This document shows, piece after piece, positions 2,178 to 51,234 of a stretch of 64,000 bases of DNA; the stretch's first letter is position 1, and every line of letters starts with the position of its first letter. The translations under genes were made by a program, and so were the position numbers. Origin of the DNA: Oscillospiraceae bacterium (GTDB lineage: Bacteria; Bacillota; Clostridia; Oscillospirales; Acutalibacteraceae); the NCBI GenBank assembly GCA_009779995.1, contig WRDW01000002.1, positions 1 through 64,000 of the forward strand. Reading direction: 5' to 3'. Below the pieces are notes generated by a model. The model saw only the letters and a program-made list of their open reading frames with translations, was not told the DNA's origin and ran no database searches.

Positions 2178-2483
2178 GTATGAACCAGATAAATAATAAC
2201 TTGCGTTGTCGCCAAAAATGTGCCATACTGGTTCCGGGACACTGCCAACACTGCAGCGCTGAGTTTTGGGCTCGCGCGTGAAACCCTGGCCCTGTGCGCA
2301 GAATCAGCGGGAAGGACTGCGACAAGACCGCCGAGGCCGGGCTTGTCGCGCGCGCTGAGGGCGATGCCGTTACAACGGGGATTGCCATCATATGTTTGTG
2401 GGGGAGATCGTGGGGGTGTATCAAAGAAAAGGAAAATGAAAAGGAAAATTAAAAAAACACTGGAAATCCCGCCGAACCTATGC

Positions 2484-2516
2484 TATACTATACTATGGTG
2501 TTATATACGCCATAGT
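2484..2516 (+). promoter_or_regulatory. putative -10 element plus operator-like inverted repeat upstream of the cysteine desulfurase
   Basis: TATACT at 2484-2489 with a weak TGGAAA 17 bp upstream, followed by ACTATGGTG-ttatata-CGCCATAGT (8/9 complementary) at 2492-2516. Confidence 0.5.
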
Positions 2517-2546
2517 ATTTTGTATTTGCGAAGGAGCCCCGCGTCC

Positions 2547-3740
2547 ATGTACGCCTATATGGATAACGCCGCCACCACCATGCTCGGCGCCGCCGCCAAG
2601 GCGGCCATGCTGCCCCTGCTGGACGAGAACTACGGCAACCCCTCCAGCCTGCACCGCTACGGCCAGCGGGCCGCCGCCGCGCTGCAAAGCGCCCGCGCGC
2701 GCGTCGCGGCGTGTCTGGGCGCCGACCCGCGGGAGATCACCTTCACCTCCGGCGGCAGCGAGGCCGACAACCAGGCCATCTTCAGTGCCGCCATGCAGGG
2801 GGCGAAGAGCAACAAGAAGCACCTCATTTCTACGAGCATCGAGCACCACGCCGTGCTGGCATATCTCAAGGGCCTGGAGAGCGAGGGTTTTACGATCACG
2901 CTGCTGCCGGTGGAGCCGGAGACGGGCCTGGTCTCTGTGCATGATCTCGAAAGCGCCCTCACGGACGGCACCTGCCTGGTGAGCGTCATGATGGCCAACA
3001 ACGAAATAGGGACAATCCAGCCTGTGGAAGAGATCGCCGGGCTATGCAGGGAGAGAAAAATCCCCTTCCACACCGACGCCGTGCAGGCCGTGGGGCATGT
3101 CCCCGTGGACGTGCGCGCCTTGGGGGCGGACATGCTCAGCCTGGCGGCGCACAAGTTCCACGGGCCCAAGGGCGCGGGCGCGCTCTATTGCCGCCGGGGG
3201 AGCCTCCCCCTGCGCCCGGTGCTGCTGGGCGGCGCGCAGGAGCGCGGCCGCCGCGCCGGCACGGAGAACCTGCCGGCGATTGTTGGAATGGCCGCGGCAC
3301 TTGAAGAAGCGATAAAAGAGTTGCCCGAAACGAGCGCGCGCATTGCCGGGTTTAGAGATCAACTGATCGAGGGCCTGTCAAACATCAGCCGCGCGCACCT
3401 CAATGGCGATAGGACGCGCCGCCTGCCGGGCAGCGTGAGCTTCTGCTTCGAGGGCCTGGAGGGGGAGTCCCTCCTGCTGCTGCTGGACGACCGGGGCATT
3501 GCGGCCTCCTCGGGCTCGGCCTGCACCTCGGGCTCCCTGAACCCCAGCCACGTGCTGCTGGCCATCGGCCGCCCGCACGAGATCGCCCACGGCTCGCTGC
3601 GCCTGAGCCTTTCGCGCTACACCACCCGGGAGGAGATAGACCACGCCCTGGCGGTCATCCCGCCGGTGGCGGAATACCTGCGGGGGATTTCGCCGGTGTG
3701 GGAGAGGATTTTGATGGAGGAGAGGAGGGAAGTTGGGTGA
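2547..3740 (+). CDS. cysteine desulfurase (NifS/IscS-like, class V aminotransferase)
   Basis: YMDNAATTMLG...NPSSLH, TFTSGGSEADNQAI, HTDAVQAVGHVPVD, LAAHKFHGPKGAGALY, SSGSACTSGSLNPSHVL motifs; start at ATG 2547. Confidence 0.93.
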   Translation: MYAYMDNAATTMLGAAAKAAMLPLLDENYGNPSSLHRYGQRAAAALQSARARVAACLGADPREITFTSGGSEADNQAIFSAAMQGAKSNKKHLISTSIEHHAVLAYLKGLESEGFTITLLPVEPETGLVSVHDLESALTDGTCLVSVMMANNEIGTIQPVEEIAGLCRERKIPFHTDAVQAVGHVPVDVRALGADMLSLAAHKFHGPKGAGALYCRRGSLPLRPVLLGGAQERGRRAGTENLPAIVGMAAALEEAIKELPETSARIAGFRDQLIEGLSNISRAHLNGDRTRRLPGSVSFCFEGLEGESLLLLLDDRGIAASSGSACTSGSLNPSHVLLAIGRPHEIAHGSLRLSLSRYTTREEIDHALAVIPPVAEYLRGISPVWERILMEERREVG

Positions 3741-4531: not shown

Positions 4532-5467
4532 ATGACCCACGCCTACATGATCCTCGCCCACCACGAGTTCCCACTGCTGGGCCGCCTGGTCTCGGCTTTG
4601 GACTATCCCTGCAACGACATCTACGTCCACATCGACAAAAAAGTGGACGACGAGCTGTTCGAGCGGATAAAGGGCGAGCTGGAAGGCACGGTCAAACAGG
4701 CAAGCATTGCTTTCACCCCGCGCGTCAATGTCGTCTGGGGCGATTTCAGTATAATTGAGGCAGAGCTGCTGCTGCTGCGCGAGGCCAGCGCGACCCATCA
4801 CGACTATTATCATTTGCTCTCCGGGGTGGACCTGCCCATCAAGCCGCACAGCGAAATACTGCGCTTTTTTGAGGAAAACGCGGGCAAGGAGTTCATCCAA
4901 GGCGTCCGCTTCCCGCCGCGCGGCCTCACGCGCTGGCGCATACGTTATTATTTCCCCCTGCAGAAGCTCGTCGGGCATAATTTTTTCGGGCCGCTGGGCC
5001 TGTTGCAATGGCTGCTGCTCCTGCCGCAGATGCTGGTAGGCGTCAACCGCCTGCGAAAGCTGCCCGGCTTATCCGGGCAGCCTTCAGAGTTCTACAAGAG
5101 CAGCAACTGGTTTTCCGCGACCCACGGTTTCGTAACCGACCTGCTGGAATTCTACGGCCGCGAGGAAAACATCCGCCACTATCGCAGGAGCATGTGCGCC
5201 GATGAAATTTTTGTGCAGATGTACGCCTTCCACAGCAAATACCGCGAGCGCATCTTCCTGCATCAGAGATACCCCGGCAGCGAAGGGCTTTTTTACAACA
5301 ACATGCGGCGCTTCGTGTTTCAAAAAGGCCTCAAGGGTTCGCCCGTCACCTACACCATGGACGACCTTGCGCGGCTCACGCAATCCCGCCAGCTGTGGGC
5401 GCGCAAGTTCAGCTATGACAAGCACCCGGAGGTCGTCGACGCCATCATGGAAAGGATCGCCCCATGA
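4532..5467 (+). CDS. GT14-like (core-2/I-branching beta-1,6-N-acetylglucosaminyltransferase family) glycosyltransferase
   Basis: MTHAYMILAHHEFPLLGRLVSALDYPCNDIYVHIDKK, HHDYYHLLSGVDLPIK, ADEIFVQMYAFHS motifs. Confidence 0.82.
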   Translation: MTHAYMILAHHEFPLLGRLVSALDYPCNDIYVHIDKKVDDELFERIKGELEGTVKQASIAFTPRVNVVWGDFSIIEAELLLLREASATHHDYYHLLSGVDLPIKPHSEILRFFEENAGKEFIQGVRFPPRGLTRWRIRYYFPLQKLVGHNFFGPLGLLQWLLLLPQMLVGVNRLRKLPGLSGQPSEFYKSSNWFSATHGFVTDLLEFYGREENIRHYRRSMCADEIFVQMYAFHSKYRERIFLHQRYPGSEGLFYNNMRRFVFQKGLKGSPVTYTMDDLARLTQSRQLWARKFSYDKHPEVVDAIMERIAP

Positions 5468-7299
5468 CCCACGCCTACATGATCCTCGCGCACCACGAGT
5501 TCCCCCTGCTGGGCCGCCTGGTCTCGGCTTTGGACTACCCCTGCAACGACATCTACGTCCACATCGACAAAAAAGTCGACGACGAGCTGTTCGCGCGGGT
5601 AAAGGGCGAGTTGGAGGGCGCTGTGAAACAGGCAAGCATTGCTTTCACCCCGCGCGTCAATGTCGTCTGGGGCGATTTCAGCATGATTGAGGCGGAGCTG
5701 CTGCTGATGCGCGAGGCCAGCGCGGTCCATCACGACTATTATCATTTGCTCTCCGGGGTGGACCTGCCCATCAAGTCCCACGGGGAGATCACGCGGTTTT
5801 TTATCGAAAACGCGGGCAAGGAGCTCGTCGGGGGCCGCGAGATCGAGCGCCGGGCGCGCGCGCGCCTGCGCTACTATTACCCTTTGCAGCGCACGGTGGG
5901 GCACCACTATCTCCGGCCGCTGGGCCTATTGCAGTGGGCGCTGCTCCTGCCGCAGATGCTGGCGGGCGTCAACCGGCTGCGGAAGCTGCCGAAGGAGATC
6001 TACAAGGGCGGCCAGTGGTTTTCCGTCACCCACGATTTTGTGGCCGGCCTGCTGGAATTCTATGGCCGCGAGGAAAACCTGAAGCCCTACCGCAAAACCC
6101 AGTGCGCCGACGAAATATGGGTGCAGATGTTCGCCTACCACAGCAAATACCGCGAGCATATCTACGAGGCGCGATGGCAGGAGTGGACTTATCCCACCAA
6201 CCTGCGTTACGTCGACTGGGCGAAAAGAGGCGCCGCCAGCCCCATGACTATATCCATGGAAAACCTGGAATGGCTGCTGAAAAGCGAATGCCTGTGGGCG
6301 CGCAAGTTCAGCTGCGAAAAGCACCCCGACGCCGTGGACGCCGTGATGGAACGAAACGCCAAGGCCCCCGAACGCCCGCTCACAAGCATCGCCGCCATGC
6401 AGGACGAAATCCTGTATCTGAAGAAGGCCACCGATACCTGCGTCCTGGCCCACAGCTACCAGGCGCGGGAGATTCTCGAAATCGCCGACGTGACCGGGGA
6501 CTCCTTCGCGCTGAGCCAGCAGGCGGCCAAGCAGCCGCAGAAGAACATGCTCGTGTGCGGCGTGCGCTTCATGGCGGAGACCGTCAAGCTGCTCGCGCCG
6601 GAAAAAAATGTGCTGCTTTGCAATTCACAGGCGGGCTGCCCCATGGCCGAGCAGTTCGACAGGGCGGCACTGGAGGAGATCAAGAGGCAATACCCGGATT
6701 CTACAGTTGTAGCCTATATCAACACGACAGCCGAGCTGAAGACCCTATGCGATGTCTGCGTCACGTCCAGCTCGGCTGTGAAAATCGTCAGGGCGCTGCC
6801 GAACGAGAATATTGTATTCATCCCGGACTGCAACCTGGGGGCCTACGTTGCCTCGCAGGTGCCCGAGAAAAATATTGTGCTTTTGCAGGGCGGCTGCCCC
6901 ATCCACGCCGCCGTGACCGCAACCGAAGCCGAGGCCGCCAAGGCCGTTCACCCGGAGGCCCTGCTGCTTGTCCACCCGGAGTGCACCCCGGAAGTTACAG
7001 CTTTGGCCGATTATGTCGGCTCCACGGCGGGGATTATGGCGTTCGCGAAGGCCTCGGACGCCAGCGAGTTCATCATAGGCACGGAGAGCAGCATCGCGGC
7101 GCATCTGCAATATGAATGCCCGGACAAGCGCTTCTATCCCCTGAGCTACAAGCTCCTGTGCCCCGACATGAAGCTCACCACGTTACCCGATGTTCTGCTG
7201 GCATTGCAGGGCAGGGGGGGCGAGGCGATAGCGCTGGACGCGTATACCCTGCGTGAGGCGCGCAAGTGCATCGATAGGATGATCGAGATGGGGGAATAG
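5464..7299 (+). CDS. nadA: GT14-like glycosyltransferase fused in frame to quinolinate synthase A (NadA)
   Basis: Continuous 611-codon ORF. About 300 N-terminal residues are paralogous to the preceding gene; from MQDEILYLKKATDTCVLAHSYQ onward it is NadA-like, with Cys in MLVCGVRFMAETVKLL, DVCVTSSSAVKIV and LVHPECTPEV. Confidence 0.85.
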   Translation: MTHAYMILAHHEFPLLGRLVSALDYPCNDIYVHIDKKVDDELFARVKGELEGAVKQASIAFTPRVNVVWGDFSMIEAELLLMREASAVHHDYYHLLSGVDLPIKSHGEITRFFIENAGKELVGGREIERRARARLRYYYPLQRTVGHHYLRPLGLLQWALLLPQMLAGVNRLRKLPKEIYKGGQWFSVTHDFVAGLLEFYGREENLKPYRKTQCADEIWVQMFAYHSKYREHIYEARWQEWTYPTNLRYVDWAKRGAASPMTISMENLEWLLKSECLWARKFSCEKHPDAVDAVMERNAKAPERPLTSIAAMQDEILYLKKATDTCVLAHSYQAREILEIADVTGDSFALSQQAAKQPQKNMLVCGVRFMAETVKLLAPEKNVLLCNSQAGCPMAEQFDRAALEEIKRQYPDSTVVAYINTTAELKTLCDVCVTSSSAVKIVRALPNENIVFIPDCNLGAYVASQVPEKNIVLLQGGCPIHAAVTATEAEAAKAVHPEALLLVHPECTPEVTALADYVGSTAGIMAFAKASDASEFIIGTESSIAAHLQYECPDKRFYPLSYKLLCPDMKLTTLPDVLLALQGRGGEAIALDAYTLREARKCIDRMIEMGE

Positions 7300-28011: not shown

Positions 28012-29244
28012 ATGACCCAAGATGAAAAAATCCTGCGCCCCCTGGCCCAGGCCTATGCCCAGGCTGCCGCCGAGCCCCGCAACGCGGAGCGCCGGGCGCT
28101 GCACATCGCCTCCAACGACCTGCACATGGCCCGCCCGCTGGTGATGCTCGACGAAATCCCATGGCAGCAGATGGACATCGACGGCTCCCTGGCCTGCCGC
28201 TGCGACGACCCCGACCTCCACGGCGTGGAGTGGTGGATGCGCCGCCAGCTGTTCCAATACAGGCGCTTCCCCGGCGACATGTTCCTGCAAAATTACGTGG
28301 GCGTGGGCAAAGCAGTTCATTCTACAGGAATCGGCATGGAGGCCAAAGACAAAACAATCGCCTCCAGCCACGCCACGAACATCATCTCCCACGAATACGA
28401 GGATCAGCTCGAAGACGAAGCCGCCCTCGAACTGATTCACCTGCCCGAGCTCTTCTACGACGAGGAGGACACCCGGGAGCGCTGGAACGTCATCGGCGAG
28501 GCCATCGGCGACATCCTCCCCGTGCGCATCACCGGCGCCACCCAGTGCGGCGTCGCCAGCTGGGACGACATTTCGCGCTATCGCGGCGTTACGCCTATAT
28601 TGATGGACTTAATTGACAGACCGGAATACAGCCACAGGATTATAGAAAAAATCACTCAATGCAAGCTGGCCGATTTGGCCCAGCGGGAGGCCATGGGCCT
28701 GCTGGACGCCGACGGCCACGCCCTGCATTGCACGCCATATCTCACAGAAGACCTGCCCAAGCCCCAGGATGGGATTGTCACGCGCAAGAACATCTGGGGG
28801 CGCGGCACGGCGCAGATTTTCGGCTCCGTGAGCCGCGGGATGCACGAGGAGTTCGACCTGGAGTACCAGAAGCGCACCGTGGGCACCTGCGGCCTGGTCT
28901 ACTACGGCTGCTGCGAGCCCCTGCACAACAAGATCGACCTCGTGGAGAAAATCCCGAACCTGCGCAAAATCGGCGTCACCCCCTGGGCCGACATCGGCAT
29001 GGCCGCCGAGATCATCGGCCCGCGCTACGTGTTCTCCAGCAAGCCCAACCCCGCTTCGGTGGCCGTGCCCATTCTGAACGAGGACGCCCTGCGCCGCGAG
29101 CTCGGCGAGATTTTGAGCGCCTGCAAGCGGGGCGGCGTGCGCGGCCTGGACATCACCCTGAAGGACATCAGCACCTGCCACGGCAGGCCGGAGAATATCT
29201 TCCGTTGGGAGCAGATCGCGATGGAGATGGCGGAGGGGTGGTGA
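28012..29244 (+). CDS. UroD-like family protein
   Basis: GC-rich ORF of ~410 aa; NIWGRGTAQIFGSVSRGMHEEFDLEYQKRT ... LVYYGCCEPLHNKIDLVEKIPNLRKIGVTPWADI. Confidence 0.65.
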   Translation: MTQDEKILRPLAQAYAQAAAEPRNAERRALHIASNDLHMARPLVMLDEIPWQQMDIDGSLACRCDDPDLHGVEWWMRRQLFQYRRFPGDMFLQNYVGVGKAVHSTGIGMEAKDKTIASSHATNIISHEYEDQLEDEAALELIHLPELFYDEEDTRERWNVIGEAIGDILPVRITGATQCGVASWDDISRYRGVTPILMDLIDRPEYSHRIIEKITQCKLADLAQREAMGLLDADGHALHCTPYLTEDLPKPQDGIVTRKNIWGRGTAQIFGSVSRGMHEEFDLEYQKRTVGTCGLVYYGCCEPLHNKIDLVEKIPNLRKIGVTPWADIGMAAEIIGPRYVFSSKPNPASVAVPILNEDALRRELGEILSACKRGGVRGLDITLKDISTCHGRPENIFRWEQIAMEMAEGW

Positions 29245-29312: not shown

Positions 29313-29370
29313 CCGCATGGCCTAAAAGCTTGCGCAGGGGCTTGTTTTCACATGTGCTAATCCGACAGCA
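29313..29370 (+). repeat. direct repeat (left) flanking XRE/RHH cassette
   Basis: ccgcatggcctaaaagcttgcgcaggggcttgttttcacatgtgctaatccgacagca; imperfect copy at 29873-29930. Confidence 0.75.
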
Positions 29371-29566
29371 CAGGTTCCGGTATGCCGATTAGGGTGGCAT
29401 AACTTACTTTGTAAAAATGCGCCAATTTAACTATAAAGTCAATATTCAACCGTGTGCGGCCACTTTCGTAATAGGCATATGTGGAGCGGTCAATTTGCAG
29501 GTAGTCGGCCATTTGCTGCTGGGTTAGGTTTCTTTCTTTGCGTAATCTACGGATGGTGTCGTGCAT
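29357..29566 (-). CDS. small XRE-family HTH regulator
   Basis: MHDTIRRLRKERNLTQQQMADYLQIDRSTYAYYESGRTRLNIDFIVKLAHFYKVS. Confidence 0.9.
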   Translation of the reverse strand: MHDTIRRLRKERNLTQQQMADYLQIDRSTYAYYESGRTRLNIDFIVKLAHFYKVSYATLIGIPEPVLSD

Positions 29567-29599
29567 GGTCTTTGCCTCCTTTCCAGAGCATTATATCAC

Positions 29600-29625
29600 A
29601 TCTGCATTGCGATTGCAATGCAGAT
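29600..29625. promoter_or_regulatory. perfect inverted repeat in divergent promoter (putative XRE operator)
   Basis: ATCTGCATTGC-gatt-GCAATGCAGAT. Confidence 0.65.
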
Positions 29626-29682
29626 TTTTTGAAAATTTTAGCTCATACTATAAGCATTACAATTGTATTGCGTGGTGAGCGT

Positions 29683-29856
29683 ATGACTAACTTTAAAATC
29701 CCTTCCATCCCTCCAACAACAAACAAAACAATACGATTTCCAAACGATGTGATAGCCAGTGTAGAAGAGGCTATCAAAGGGAAGGATTGTACCTTTTCCG
29801 CGTTTGTGGTTTCGGCCGTTCGTGCTGCTTTAGAGGAAATAAAAGAAAATTTGTAG
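29683..29856 (+). CDS. small ribbon-helix-helix-like protein
   Basis: MTNFKIPSIPPTTNKTIRFPNDVIASVEEAIKGKDCTFSAFVVSAVRAALEEIKENL; divergent from the XRE gene. Confidence 0.65.
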   Translation: MTNFKIPSIPPTTNKTIRFPNDVIASVEEAIKGKDCTFSAFVVSAVRAALEEIKENL

Positions 29857-29872
29857 AGATACCTCTTCATCT

Positions 29873-29930
29873 CCGCATTGGCCTAAAAGCCAGCGCGGAG
29901 CTTGTTCTTTTATGTGCTATTCCGGCAGCA
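29873..29930 (+). repeat. direct repeat (right) flanking XRE/RHH cassette
   Basis: ccgcattggcctaaaagccagcgcggagcttgttcttttatgtgctattccggcagca. Confidence 0.75.
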
Positions 29931-29952: not shown

Positions 29953-29981
29953 TTGACATTTTTTAGCCTATATAGTACAAT
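29953..29981 (+). promoter_or_regulatory. sigma70-like promoter for GH4/GH38 operon
   Basis: TTGACA (29953-29958), 17 bp, TACAAT (29976-29981). Confidence 0.6.
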
Positions 29982-30022: not shown

Positions 30023-31495
30023 ATGCCCAACATCACCATCACCTACATCGGCGGGGGCTCGAAGGCCTGGGCCCATGCGTATTTCGCCGACCTGCTCACC
30101 CAAAGCCAGCTCGAGGGCGAGCTGCGGCTGTATGACATCGACATCCCCGCCGCCGAGCGCAACCGGAAATTCTTCGACAAGCTCAAACAGACCAATGCCG
30201 AGAAAATCAAGAGCAGCTGGACCTGCACTGTACATGAAAACATCGACACGGCCCTGGCGGGCGCGGACTTCGTGATTATCTCGATTTTGCCCTACCAGCT
30301 GAAGAACATGTACGTGGACGTCCATTATCCCCAGAGATACGGCATCTGGCAGCCCGTGGGGGACAGCGCCGGGGCGGGGGGGTACTCCCGGGCGCTGCGC
30401 ACCACGCCGGCCTACATCTTCTTCGCGCAGAAGATCCGCGAGCACTGCCCGCAGGCCTGGGTCATCAACTACACCAACCCCATGACGCTGTGCATGAATA
30501 CTCTTTACAGAGAGTTCCCGGAGATCAAGGCATTCGGCTGCTGCCACGAGGTCTTCGGCACGCAGAATCTCATATGCCGCATCGCCGGGATGTATTTGAG
30601 CCTGTCAGCCGAAGGCAAGAAAGCGTTCATGAACGCCGATTTGAAGGCTGTCAAGGCCGAGCTTACGGCCCTGGGGAAAGATTTCAATGACATCAAGAGC
30701 CACGGCAAGTTCGGCCGACATGAAATCACGACGAACGTCCAGGGCGTCAATCACTTCACCTGGATCAACGAGGCCTCCTATCAGGGCCTGGATTTGATGC
30801 CCGTCGTCGCCGCCTACGCGAAAATGTTCGAGGAGAACGCCGTCACCTATCTCAAGGGCAAGAATCCCATACAAAAGCGTCTGCGCAACACGCACCACGT
30901 GAAGTACACTCTCTTGGAGAGATTCGGCGCGCTGGGCGCCGCGGGGGACAGGCACCTGTCCGAGTTCGTGCCGGAGCTCTTCCTGACAAGCAGGCACGTG
31001 CTCCAATACGGCTTCGAGCTCACCCCCGTGGCGGGCAGGATGCTCGTCAACAGGCTTTTGATGCTCATGACGGCGCTGGCCGCCACGCCGCTCTACAACC
31101 CGAAGATCAAGGGCTCGGGCGAGGAGGGCGTCAGGCAGATCACCGCCATCTGCGGCCTGGGCGACATCGTCACCAACGTGAACCTGCCGAACAGGGGCCA
31201 GCTGAAGAACATCGCCCAGGGCACCGCCGTGGAGACCAACGCCGCTTTCTCCCGCGACAGCGTGGTGGCGGTCGATTCCGGCGAGATGCCCCCCGCCGCC
31301 GCCGCCCTGGTGAACATCCACGCGCAGAACCAGAAAGATTTCACGGAAGCTTTCTTCAAAAAGGACAGAACCGCCCTGGAGGCCGTCTTCTGCCGCGACC
31401 CGCAGGTTGTGAGAATTGGGGTTGAGAAGGGGAAGAAGCTGTTTGCGGAAATGATTGATAAGAATAGGAAGTGCTTGGAGGATTTCTTAAAATGA
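30023..31495 (+). CDS. glycoside hydrolase family 4 (alpha-glucosidase/galactosidase-like)
   Basis: ITYIGGGSKAWAHAYFADLL, WVINYTNPMTLCMNTLY, FGCCHEVFGTQNL, VQGVNHFTWI motifs. Confidence 0.9.
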   Translation: MPNITITYIGGGSKAWAHAYFADLLTQSQLEGELRLYDIDIPAAERNRKFFDKLKQTNAEKIKSSWTCTVHENIDTALAGADFVIISILPYQLKNMYVDVHYPQRYGIWQPVGDSAGAGGYSRALRTTPAYIFFAQKIREHCPQAWVINYTNPMTLCMNTLYREFPEIKAFGCCHEVFGTQNLICRIAGMYLSLSAEGKKAFMNADLKAVKAELTALGKDFNDIKSHGKFGRHEITTNVQGVNHFTWINEASYQGLDLMPVVAAYAKMFEENAVTYLKGKNPIQKRLRNTHHVKYTLLERFGALGAAGDRHLSEFVPELFLTSRHVLQYGFELTPVAGRMLVNRLLMLMTALAATPLYNPKIKGSGEEGVRQITAICGLGDIVTNVNLPNRGQLKNIAQGTAVETNAAFSRDSVVAVDSGEMPPAAAALVNIHAQNQKDFTEAFFKKDRTALEAVFCRDPQVVRIGVEKGKKLFAEMIDKNRKCLEDFLK

Positions 31496-47160: not shown

Positions 47161-47190
47161 AGACGCACACCCGTGCGTCTTACTTTTTCT
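47161..47190 (+). terminator. R6-family hairpin followed by T-tract after rnhB
   Basis: AGACGCAC-accc-GTGCGTCT tactttttct. Confidence 0.6.
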
Positions 47191-47422
47191 CCGCCTTCCT
47201 CGTATACCCGCAGCCCTCGTTCAGGCACTTCACCGCCCCGCCCCTGTTTTGGAACAGGATTTTTTTCTTGCGTTTCCCGAACCGTATAATAGTCGGCTTC
47301 ATCTGTGCGCATCCTTCGCACAAATCCCATTCATCGTCCGATAAAATCACATCTTCCTGCGTCAGGTGGGTGTGGTTTAATTTGTTCCAGCAATCCAAAC
47401 AAAATTCAGCCATTGCAAACAC
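47180..47422 (-). CDS. small cysteine-rich (zinc-ribbon-like) protein whose C-terminus is a duplicate of the TopA C-terminus
   Basis: MFAMAEFCLDCWNKLNHTHLTQEDVILSDDEWDLCEGCAQMKPTIIRFGKRKKKI + LFQNRGGAVKCLNEGCGYTRKAEKK. Confidence 0.65.
   Translation of the reverse strand: MFAMAEFCLDCWNKLNHTHLTQEDVILSDDEWDLCEGCAQMKPTIIRFGKRKKKILFQNRGGAVKCLNEGCGYTRKAEKK
47187..47258 (-). repeat. duplicated topA 3' segment (distal copy)
   Basis: 72 bp, 69/72 identical by eye to 47824-47895. Confidence 0.9.
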
Positions 47423-47508: not shown

Positions 47509-47769
47509 ATGAAGAAAATTGAGTATAATGCCCATAAAAATGTTATATGCCAGCAACTGAAAAAAATCCGCATCGCGGCGGGCATGTCACAGAGCCAAAC
47601 AGCCGCCAAGATGCAGACCATGGGTATCAACATTGACCAGCAAATGATCAGTAAAATTGAAAATGATAATCGTATTGTGACTGACTATGAACTGGCTTGT
47701 TTTTGCAGAATTTTTAACGTGAAAGAAAAAGATCTCCTAAAGGATTTTTATGACAATCGCTATGAATAA
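47509..47769 (+). CDS. small XRE-family HTH regulator
   Basis: VICQQLKKIRIAAGMSQSQTAAKMQTMGINIDQQMISKIENDNRIVTDYELACFCRIF. Confidence 0.85.
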   Translation: MKKIEYNAHKNVICQQLKKIRIAAGMSQSQTAAKMQTMGINIDQQMISKIENDNRIVTDYELACFCRIFNVKEKDLLKDFYDNRYE

Positions 47770-47813: not shown

Positions 47814-49976
47814 CTATACCCCCTTCTCCGCCTTCCGCATATACCCGCACCCCTCGTTCAGGCACTTCACCGCCCCGCCCCTGTTTTGGAACAGGCTCTT
47901 GCCGCACTGGGGGCAGTTTTCGCCCGAGGGGGCGTCCCAGGTGGTGAACTGGCACTCCGGCCAGGCGGAGCAGCCGTAGAACACGCGCCCTGTCTTCTTG
48001 GCCTTGCGCTGCACCACGTTCTGGCCGCACAGGGGGCAGTGCGCCTTGGTCTCGGCCACAAGGGGCTTGGCGTTTTTGCACTCGGGGTAGCCGGGGCAGG
48101 CCAAAAAGCGCCCGTAGCGCCCGGTTTTGATCACCATCATGCGCCCGCAGTTCTCGCAGGGGATGTCCGTTTTATCTTCTTCAAGCTGAATCTTCACGCC
48201 CTCCATCTCGGCCTTGGCCTGGAGGAGGGTCTTTTCAAAGTCACCGTAGAAATCCCGCAGCACGGCCACATAGTCGCTCTTGCCCCGGCCCACCTCGTCC
48301 AGCCGGGTCTCCATCTGCGCGGTGAACTTCACGTTCACGATGTTGGGGAAGCGTTCTTTCAGCAGGCGCACCATGGCCTCGCCGAGTTCCGTGGGCAGCA
48401 GCTGCTTCTGCTGCCGCGTGACGTAGCCGCGCTGCAAGATCGTGTGGATGATGGTGGCGTAGGTGCTCGGGCGGCCCACGCCGCTCTCCTCCAGGGCCTT
48501 GATGAGGCTGGCCTCGGTGTAGCGCGGCGGCGGCTGGGTGAAGTGCTGCGCCGAGATGAGTTCCTTCAGGCTGAGTGCCTCGCCCTCCTTGAGCTCGGGC
48601 AACGCTTTCTCGCCCGCGGCGTCGTCCTCCTCGTCGGCGGAGGCCTCATAGAGCCTGGTGTAGCCGTCGAATTTCACGCTATACCCCGAGGCGTTGAACA
48701 CGAAGTGCTTTCCCGCGCGCTTGTCTTCGGCGTTCGTCGCCAAAATTGTAGCTTTGACCGTGTCCTGCAGGCAGGAGGCCATCTGGCTGGCGAGGAAGCG
48801 CTTCCATATCAGGTCGTAGAGCTTTTGCTGGTCGGGGGTCAGGCTCCCCTTGAGCTGGGCGGGGGTGAGCGAGGGCAGCACGGGGCGTATGGCCTCGTGG
48901 CCGTCCTGGGCCCCGGCGCGGGTTCTGTATACCCTCGGCTGGGCGGGGAGATAATTTTTGCCGTAGATGCCCGCGATATACTCGTTCGCCAAGCCGCGGG
49001 CCTCGTCGGAGATGCGCAGGGAGTCTGTGCGCATATAAGTGATCAAACCGGTGGGGCCGTGGCCGGGCACGTCCACGCCCTCGTAGAGCTCCTGGGCGGC
49101 CTTCATCGTGCGCTGGGCCTGGAAGCCCAGGCGGCGCGAGGCCTCCTGCTGCAAAGTGGATGTGTTGAAGGGCGGCGCGGGGTTTTTCTTGCGCGAGCCC
49201 TTTTTGATATTCGCTACGCGATACGCAGCGTTTTGCAGGCGGGTCAAGATTCCGTCCGCCTGACTTTTATTCTCCAAGGGGATTTTGCCTCTCTGGTCGC
49301 CCACAAACTGCGCCGTGAATTGGTTTCTCGCGGTGTTCAGGAGCTTGGCGTCTATCGTCCAGTACTCCTCGGGAATAAAAGCGCGCACTTCGAATTCCCT
49401 GTCGGCGATCAAACGCACGGCCACGCTCTGCACGCGCCCGGCGGAGAGCCCGCGCCGTATCTTCTGGCTGACAAAGGGGCTGAGCTTGTAGCCCACCAGC
49501 CGATCCAGGATGCGCCGGGCCTGCTGGGCGTTCACCAGGTCAATATCGACCTTGCGCGGGCTTGCCATGCCCTTCTGCACGCCGGTTTTGGTGATCTCGT
49601 TGAAGGTAACGCGATTCGCCTGCTTGAGGTCGAGGTCCAGCAGGGTGGCCAAATGCCAGGAGATGGCCTCGCCCTCCCTATCCGGGTCGGTGGCGAGGAA
49701 TATCTTTTTGCATTTCGCCGCCTGGGCCTGGAGGTCCTTGACGACCTTCTCCTTGTCTTTCATGACGGTGTAGCTGGGCGCGAAGTCCCGGTTGACGTCC
49801 ACGGCCAGGCGCGAGGCGGGCAAATCCCGCACGTGCCCCTTGGAGGAGGCCACCACGAAATCCGCGCCCAGGTATTTCTGGATGCTCTTGATTTTGGAGG
49901 GGGATTCGACGATGAGCAGGTTCAAATTTTGGTCCTCATGATTTTCAAATATTGACTCTATGTCACGGCGCGCCAT
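47814..49976 (-). CDS. topA: DNA topoisomerase I
   Basis: LLIVESPSKIKSIQKYLGADF, LATDPDREGEAISWHL, ALSAGRVQSVAVRLI-type region (GLSAGRVQSVAVRLI), ITYMRTDSLRIS, C-terminal zinc ribbons; start uncertain (ORF open to 50009). Confidence 0.95.
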   Translation of the reverse strand: MARRDIESIFENHEDQNLNLLIVESPSKIKSIQKYLGADFVVASSKGHVRDLPASRLAVDVNRDFAPSYTVMKDKEKVVKDLQAQAAKCKKIFLATDPDREGEAISWHLATLLDLDLKQANRVTFNEITKTGVQKGMASPRKVDIDLVNAQQARRILDRLVGYKLSPFVSQKIRRGLSAGRVQSVAVRLIADREFEVRAFIPEEYWTIDAKLLNTARNQFTAQFVGDQRGKIPLENKSQADGILTRLQNAAYRVANIKKGSRKKNPAPPFNTSTLQQEASRRLGFQAQRTMKAAQELYEGVDVPGHGPTGLITYMRTDSLRISDEARGLANEYIAGIYGKNYLPAQPRVYRTRAGAQDGHEAIRPVLPSLTPAQLKGSLTPDQQKLYDLIWKRFLASQMASCLQDTVKATILATNAEDKRAGKHFVFNASGYSVKFDGYTRLYEASADEEDDAAGEKALPELKEGEALSLKELISAQHFTQPPPRYTEASLIKALEESGVGRPSTYATIIHTILQRGYVTRQQKQLLPTELGEAMVRLLKERFPNIVNVKFTAQMETRLDEVGRGKSDYVAVLRDFYGDFEKTLLQAKAEMEGVKIQLEEDKTDIPCENCGRMMVIKTGRYGRFLACPGYPECKNAKPLVAETKAHCPLCGQNVVQRKAKKTGRVFYGCSAWPECQFTTWDAPSGENCPQCGKSLFQNRGGAVKCLNEGCGYMRKAEKGV
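47824..47895 (-). repeat. topA 3' segment (copy within topA)
   Basis: Near-identical to 47187-47258. Confidence 0.9.
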
Positions 49977-49995
49977 CGGCCCGCCGAATGCAAAG

Positions 49996-51234
49996 TCAGG
50001 CCTTCCCATACATCTTCCCCGGCGCCTGCTGTATGACCTCCTGCACCTCCAAATGCATCAGCGCCGCGAAGAGCTCGCCGTAGGGCGCGCCGGTCTCCTT
50101 CATGATGGCGTCGATGTGCAGGGGGGCGTTGGCGAGGAGGTGCAGGATTTGATTTTCGAGAGGGGAGAGGTCGGCGGATTTCACAGGCGCAGGGGCAGAC
50201 GCTGCGGCCTTTTGCACGGGCGGCAAGAAGCCGCCCTCCGGTCGTGTCGCCATATGGCGAGCCCCTACAGCAGGCTTTTTGACGACGACCTTCTCCGGCG
50301 CCACCGAGGGCCGCTCCAGGTCGCGCGCGGCGCGGCGCATGTCCAGCAGCTCCGGATAGAGCAGTTCGTACTCCTCCAGGATGTCCATGGCGGAGAATAC
50401 GGGCTTCGCGCCGTCGCGGATGAGCTTGTTGCCGCCGGTGTAGGTGGAGCCGAAGGCGTCCCCCGGCACGGCGAACACGTCGCGGCCCTGCTCGGCGGCG
50501 CAGCCCGCCGTGATCAGGGAGCCGCTCTTCTCCCCGGCCTCGATGACGATCGTCCCGGCGCACATGCCGGAGATCAGCCGGTTGCGTATGGGGAAATTCT
50601 TCGCGGCGGGGGCGGTGCCGAAGGGGAACTCCGTGACCACCGCGCCGCGCTCGGCGATTTTCGCCCGCAGGGGGGCGTTCTCCGCCGGGTAGTTGACGTC
50701 CAGCCCGCAGCCGAGCACCGCCACGGTGCTGCCCCCCGCGTGGAGCACGCCCCAGTGGGCCGCGCTGTCGATTCCCAGCGCCCCGCCGCTGACGACGGCG
50801 CAATTGGCATGAACCAGGTCAGCACTTAGGCGCGCGCAAATGTCCACGCTCTTGCGGCTGGCGCGGCGGGTGCCCACCACGGCCAGGGGCAGGCGCTCGC
50901 GCAGGCACTCAAGTGAACCGCGCGTGTAAAGCACGAGGGGGAAGCCCGTGATCTCCAGCAGCCGGGCGGGGTAGGCGGCGTCCTGCGGTGATAGGATATG
51001 CGCATTCTGGCGCGCGCATTCCTCCAGGATGCTTTCCGCTTGCCCCATAGGCGTGCCCCGCAGGCGCGCCAGCTGCGCGTTGGTGAACACCCCGGCCACC
51101 CTTCGGTCATAATCGGACGCCCCGTAAATCTCCTTCGCGCCGCCCGGGAAGGCGGCGAGGATCTCCCCCGTGCGCAGGGAGGGCGATACGCCCAGCGCGC
51201 ACTGGAGCCAGAGGTAGTATAACGTGTCGTGCAT
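49996..51234 (-). CDS. dprA: DNA processing protein DprA
   Basis: YPARLLEITGFPLVLYTRGSLECLRERLPLAVVGTRRAS, VVSGGALGIDSAAHWGVLHAGGSTVAVLGCGLDVNYPAEN, C-terminal winged-helix-like SPLENQILHLLANAPLHIDAIM. Confidence 0.93.
   Translation of the reverse strand: MHDTLYYLWLQCALGVSPSLRTGEILAAFPGGAKEIYGASDYDRRVAGVFTNAQLARLRGTPMGQAESILEECARQNAHILSPQDAAYPARLLEITGFPLVLYTRGSLECLRERLPLAVVGTRRASRKSVDICARLSADLVHANCAVVSGGALGIDSAAHWGVLHAGGSTVAVLGCGLDVNYPAENAPLRAKIAERGAVVTEFPFGTAPAAKNFPIRNRLISGMCAGTIVIEAGEKSGSLITAGCAAEQGRDVFAVPGDAFGSTYTGGNKLIRDGAKPVFSAMDILEEYELLYPELLDMRRAARDLERPSVAPEKVVVKKPAVGARHMATRPEGGFLPPVQKAAASAPAPVKSADLSPLENQILHLLANAPLHIDAIMKETGAPYGELFAALMHLEVQEVIQQAPGKMYGKA
50217..50270. repeat. R1-type palindromic repeat inside dprA coding sequence
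   Basis: CGGGCGGCAAGAAGCCGCCCTCCGGTCGTGTCGCCATATGGCGAGCCCCTACAG; encodes AVGARHMATRPEGGFLPPV on the minus strand. Confidence 0.8.

Follow-up and report, generated by a model that had tools for sequence, protein, structure and literature searches.

How does a pair of very small regulatory genes come to stand between unrelated genes, bracketed by direct repeats? The question is raised by positions 29313-29930 of the window (the whole 64,000-nucleotide stretch of Oscillospiraceae bacterium DNA analysed here). The module found there, cassette A, is about 0.5 kb long and AT-rich (41% GC, against 60% for the window) and contains no recombinase gene; it carries an XRE gene on the reverse strand and an RHH gene on the forward strand, arranged divergently with two palindromes in between. 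The features of the locus are as follows.

28012-29244, forward strand: upstream gene, 410 aa, no Pfam match
29313-29370: 58-bp repeat, left copy (duplicated target); left end of the cassette at the inner edge of this copy
29357-29566, reverse strand: XRE regulator with Cro/CI-type HTH, 69 aa (Pfam HTH_3, 59.9 bits against a cutoff of 23)
29590-29618, reverse strand: predicted sigma-70 promoter of the XRE gene, TTGCAA-17-TATAAT (from a consensus scan)
29603-29622: op1, palindromic candidate operator TGCATTGC-N4-GCAATGCA, overlapping the -35 element of the predicted XRE promoter
29654-29671: op2, palindrome GCATTACAATTGTATTGC, upstream of the RHH start codon and 51 bp past op1
29683-29856, forward strand: RHH protein of the YlcI/YnfO family, 57 aa (NCBIfam NF041551, 50.1 bits against a cutoff of 30)
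29873-29930: right copy of the 58-bp repeat
30023-31495, forward strand: family 4 glycosidase gene, the downstream neighbor

The original prediction, made from the letters and open reading frames, described imperfect direct repeats of 58 bp around a divergent XRE/RHH pair without a recombinase, and the HTH_3 and NF041551 scores together with the alignment of the repeats bear this out. The two copies are identical in 48 of 59 columns (81%, with 9 mismatches and 2 gaps), and their local alignment score is 59 against a maximum of 31 for shuffled sequence. A search of the whole genome (completeness 66%) with one copy returns the other as the sole further significant match (E 5e-8); neither copy is present in 59 relatives, and the viral contigs searched contain no match. 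A dispersed genomic or mobile repeat can therefore be ruled out, as can the end of a shared element, since the sequence is restricted to its own site and missing from those 59 relatives. The 58-bp repeats are duplicated target sequence and not element ends. The expectation that the repeat would turn up elsewhere as a shared mobile-element repeat around other cargo thus gives way to site-unique duplications of terminators or gene 3' ends. On the forward strand the right copy forms a strong predicted hairpin (-21.8 kcal/mol, z -2.3), the left copy shows no significant fold (z 0.5), and no RNA family scores above its gathering threshold in the region of cassette A. The stop and final codons of the XRE gene fall within the left copy, so that the two features overlap slightly, and the predicted promoter of the glycosidase gene (29953-29981) begins just beyond the right copy. 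The host gene that had its 3' flank duplicated is probably the one at 28012-29244. A search for an orthologous empty site of cassette A gave none: the GH4 relatives in genome G010, and the genome's own paralog, stand without the upstream gene.

By score the RHH protein is a member of the YlcI/YnfO family, and all 21 aligned members match NF041551, a family model with no function attached; for this family we found no description of an operator pair or of the cassette organisation. Its predicted structure has an extended N-terminus followed by two helices (pLDDT 72), and Foldseek returns weak matches only, HicB and Omega RHH proteins among them.

The same XRE-RHH pair recurs at an unrelated locus (L057) with 82% DNA identity over 462 bp (window 29396-29855). 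The homology begins beside the inner edge of the left repeat and stops at the cassette edges, beyond which the flanks are unrelated. Between the two copies dN/dS is about 0.09 for the XRE gene and about 0.036 for the RHH gene, values that point to purifying selection on both. Judged by such sequence comparison, the module of cassette A is mobile, and it is absent from the congeners listed. The earlier reading as a mobile two-gene regulatory cassette is upheld by these observations. That reading had named two things that would speak against it, repeats unique to the site and a module fixed in all relatives; the repeats are indeed unique, and the module is not fixed.

RHH relatives are present in 56 of 398 genomes of the family, spread over 42 of 135 genera; identity is 56-85% in about 42 genomes of the family other than that of the window. 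A scan of named genomes gives 62 RHH loci, in Christensenella-type genomes, Oscillospiraceae and other Clostridia. Spread by way of plasmids was considered and rejected, as 72,556 plasmid records contain no RHH match. More diverged relatives (about 60%; L177-L183 and L185) form reverse-strand islands among the tail genes of Clostridia phages. In three Oscillospiraceae genomes (L082, L084, L089) the cassette lies beside the same right-hand gene, acetate kinase-like, and is flanked by a nearly identical hairpin, a set that should be useful for dating insertions. At another locus (L047) two RHH genes and several XRE genes form a tandem array with repeats of about 90%, as if cassettes stack there.

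The palindromes between the divergent genes are conserved. With at most 3 mismatches, op1 is found at 59 of 92 RHH loci against none of 920 shuffles, and the distance of 51 bp from op1 to op2 is fixed in 40 loci. The copy of op1 in cassette A is the only perfect match in its genome, and a genome-wide RHH regulon was dismissed because the genome holds no further good operator match. From this, and from the overlap of op1 with the XRE -35 element, we infer local autoregulation of both divergent genes. RHH dimers probably bind op1 and op2 cooperatively, repressing both divergent promoters, as conservation and position suggest; that the XRE protein acts as a cross-regulator in cassette A is the simplest guess.

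The RHH gene and its operator pair are the constant part of this cassette family, and the divergent partner is exchangeable. The partner, most often a small zinc-ribbon protein (ZnR), is such a ZnR at 18 loci, CYC at 5, XRE at 3-4, VCPK at 2 and an AbrB-like protein at 1; further partners are of the PDYKEMY/EYKQPY type, among others. ZnR itself pairs with several types of XRE having different intergenic sequences. A third cassette of the window genome (L055, G000:C25:471-959) has a different XRE partner and a ZnR gene interrupted by a stop; its 82% DNA identity to the second cassette of the window is confined to the ZnR gene. Such small, putatively autoregulated pairs, with antitoxin-like RHH or XRE folds kept under purifying selection, might be read as toxin-antitoxin modules in which the RHH or XRE protein is the antitoxin, the small partner (for example the zinc ribbon with its hydrophobic tail) is the toxin, and addiction drives the spread. 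This is possible if somewhat doubtful, given that the genes are divergent and not operonic, that both members of cassette A look like DNA-binding proteins, and that Pfam, NCBIfam and PADLOC give no match between any partner and a known toxin; known defense or toxin-antitoxin families were also rejected as the identity of the partners. Such a reading concerns function only, and is compatible with mobility of the cassette.

For the mobile cassette itself, the flanks at other loci are informative. An alignment score of at least 42 between the two flanks is reached at 21 of 89 RHH loci, against 2 of 109 displaced anchors (p = 1.5e-6). Removing 5 of the 21 as paralogous genes or tandem arrays leaves 16 (flank matches discarded on these grounds include L047, L066, L073 and L116), and flanking duplication goes undetected in about three quarters of RHH loci. 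Among ZnR-XRE loci without RHH, 5 of 13 have duplicated flanks. The duplications are about 30-180 bp long and consist of a local terminator or of a host-gene 3' end; most show one terminator twice, with the same locus-specific stem. At L039 the end of an R3H-domain gene (named Jag-like by eye) is duplicated over 119 bp, and the ZnR tail is fused to the copy. At L035 and L049 the host end supplies the last codons, the stop or the terminator of RHH or its partner. In most loci the RHH start is separated from the edges of the cassette by 151 to about 208 bp, and these edges share no common terminal sequence. Every locus with a clear duplication belongs to a metagenome-assembled genome, although short reads easily resolve repeats of such a length. 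The flanks of L107 consist of a palindromic repeat of 290 bp (CAATCCCTCAGTCGGC...CTCCCTTTGCACAAGGGAG), by its appearance a dispersed element.

The second XRE cassette with flanking duplications that had been noted in the window is real and, as had been supposed, a relative of cassette A of the same type; it also holds a zinc-ribbon gene. This cassette B, one of the five duplicated ZnR-XRE loci, lies at the end of topA.

47180-47413, reverse strand: ZnR, small zinc-ribbon protein, 77 aa, with a copy of the TopA C-terminus as its tail
47187-47263, reverse strand: copy of the topA 3' end on the downstream side, joined to ZnR in frame
47509-47769, forward strand: XRE regulator, 86 aa, divergent from ZnR (HTH_3, 31.0 bits)
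47814-50009, reverse strand: topA, DNA topoisomerase I, the host gene of cassette B
47824-47900, reverse strand: the same sequence as at 47187-47263, inside the intact topA

The repeats of cassette B are 94% identical over 77 nt; those of cassette A are either older or diverging faster. In 13 of 13 congeners the topA 3' end is single and free of a cassette. Within the window the two topA ends are much closer to one another than either is to that of any congener, so the duplication is local and arose in this lineage. Empty sites are seen for other cassettes as well. Genome G063 has a ZnR-RHH cassette flanked by a permease gene and a GNAT-like gene, one copy of a terminator standing on each side, and its sister species G419 has the same permease and GNAT genes with a single terminator and no cassette. 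Nine relatives of the L039 genome likewise have the end of the R3H gene only once and no cassette at it. A further empty site was sought for L035, whose host gene is missing from congeners.

Elsewhere in the window, positions 870-2177 contain an AT-rich open reading frame (40% GC), the visible part of which reads by eye like a serine recombinase; it stands beside a probable cysteine desulfurase gene (2364-3740) and is likely the end of an integrated element. At 4532-7002 a glycosyltransferase-like gene is duplicated in tandem (4532-5467 and 5464-7002), the first 300 nt being 94% identical.

It would appear, with fair probability, that cassette A is a moron-like, self-regulated and mobile two-gene cassette without a recombinase, and that it spreads through insertions at host-gene 3' ends. 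Such an insertion would leave a locus-specific duplication of the gene end, of the terminator or of both. The host gene would stay intact, and the duplicated end would lend a stop codon or terminator to a cassette whose genes would themselves lack any fixed stop codon or terminator. In the window the targets would be the flank behind the gene at 28012-29244 for cassette A and the end of topA for cassette B. If synthesis during replication or repair switched template to the cassette, and then back to a position upstream of the starting point, the insertion could result. A by-product of replication or repair is more likely here than the work of a dedicated transposase, because the edges vary and no terminal sequence is common to the copies.

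The rival that a non-autonomous transposable element is moved by a trans-acting recombinase, leaving long staggered target duplications, does account for a defined unit inserted repeatedly with its target duplicated. We nevertheless consider it unlikely: beyond the lack of shared terminal sequence, the edges stand at varying distances from the RHH stop, the duplications range from about 30 to 180 bp, and partner genes are swapped at one end. Direct repeats at gene 3' ends also look like att sites, phages often carry XRE and RHH genes, and relatives occur in them; from these facts one could suppose a prophage or integrative element shrunk to its two regulator genes. This is very unlikely, however, since the same minimal cassette is found at many unrelated sites, with different repeats at each and no larger element between them. 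That the genes are ordinary resident regulators, and the repeats chance or convergent terminators (many are hairpins, and adjacent genes may have similar terminators), is scarcely credible when the repeats have locus-specific stems and gene ends in common (jag 119 bp, topA 77 bp) and lie far above shuffled, swapped and displaced controls, and when the module is missing from relatives, with the empty topA and permease sites contradicting it directly.

The moron-like mobile cassette can be set beside several known systems. Phage morons, of which the pid moron in the late region of P22 is an example (PMC3573128), are likewise short self-regulated units with their own promoter, placed among unrelated genes and without a recombinase; a self-contained transcription unit between unrelated genes is just what is found here, and the RHH relatives among phage tail genes occupy the classical moron position. 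Unlike morons, the cassettes are mostly chromosomal, standing in the studied cases behind housekeeping genes, and consist of two divergent genes with an exchangeable partner; they also obtain stop codons and terminators from duplicated host ends, a feature that we did not find described for morons. No phage or prophage location was found for the cassettes of the window, whose neighbors are the glycosidase gene (A) and topA (B). With type II toxin-antitoxin modules having RHH or XRE antitoxins they share tiny proteins, autoregulatory operators (here predicted) and a patchy distribution, and differ in having no shared operon, no recognised toxin, and a constant regulator with several unrelated partners. 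Like non-autonomous transposons and MITEs they are short, lack a transposase and have target duplications on both sides; in contrast to MITEs and non-autonomous insertion sequences they have no terminal inverted repeats, variable ends, intact coding genes, and duplications many times longer than usual and of no fixed length. Integron gene cassettes and att-flanked elements differ in that here no recombination site is common to the copies, the repeats being unique to each locus. Arabidopsis genes transposed between flanking repeats and moved without a transposon (PMC2869330) offer an analogy for a repair-type mechanism only, in a eukaryote and on a different scale.

No description of such cassettes was found in the open-access literature, a scope outside which most subscription papers fall. 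More tentatively, they may constitute a distinct class of mobile unit: regulator cassettes without stops or terminators, carrying interchangeable partners, that colonize the 3' ends of Clostridia genes independently of a recombinase, duplicate the host end and borrow its stop and terminator.

The cassettes bear on the question of how morons, and other gene units of very small size, move when they carry no recombinase. Their insertion can be studied by comparing strains, since it leaves traces that can be read in the sequence, namely host-end duplications of defined extent and empty sites. The constant core of RHH and operators with its swapped partners provides a testable system for uncharacterised partner families. 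A ZnR with the tail of TopA or of the R3H protein exemplifies a concrete route to new small proteins, in which a host gene gives a small protein a new C-terminus. The cassettes point to a hitherto undescribed way for very small genes to spread in gut Clostridia.
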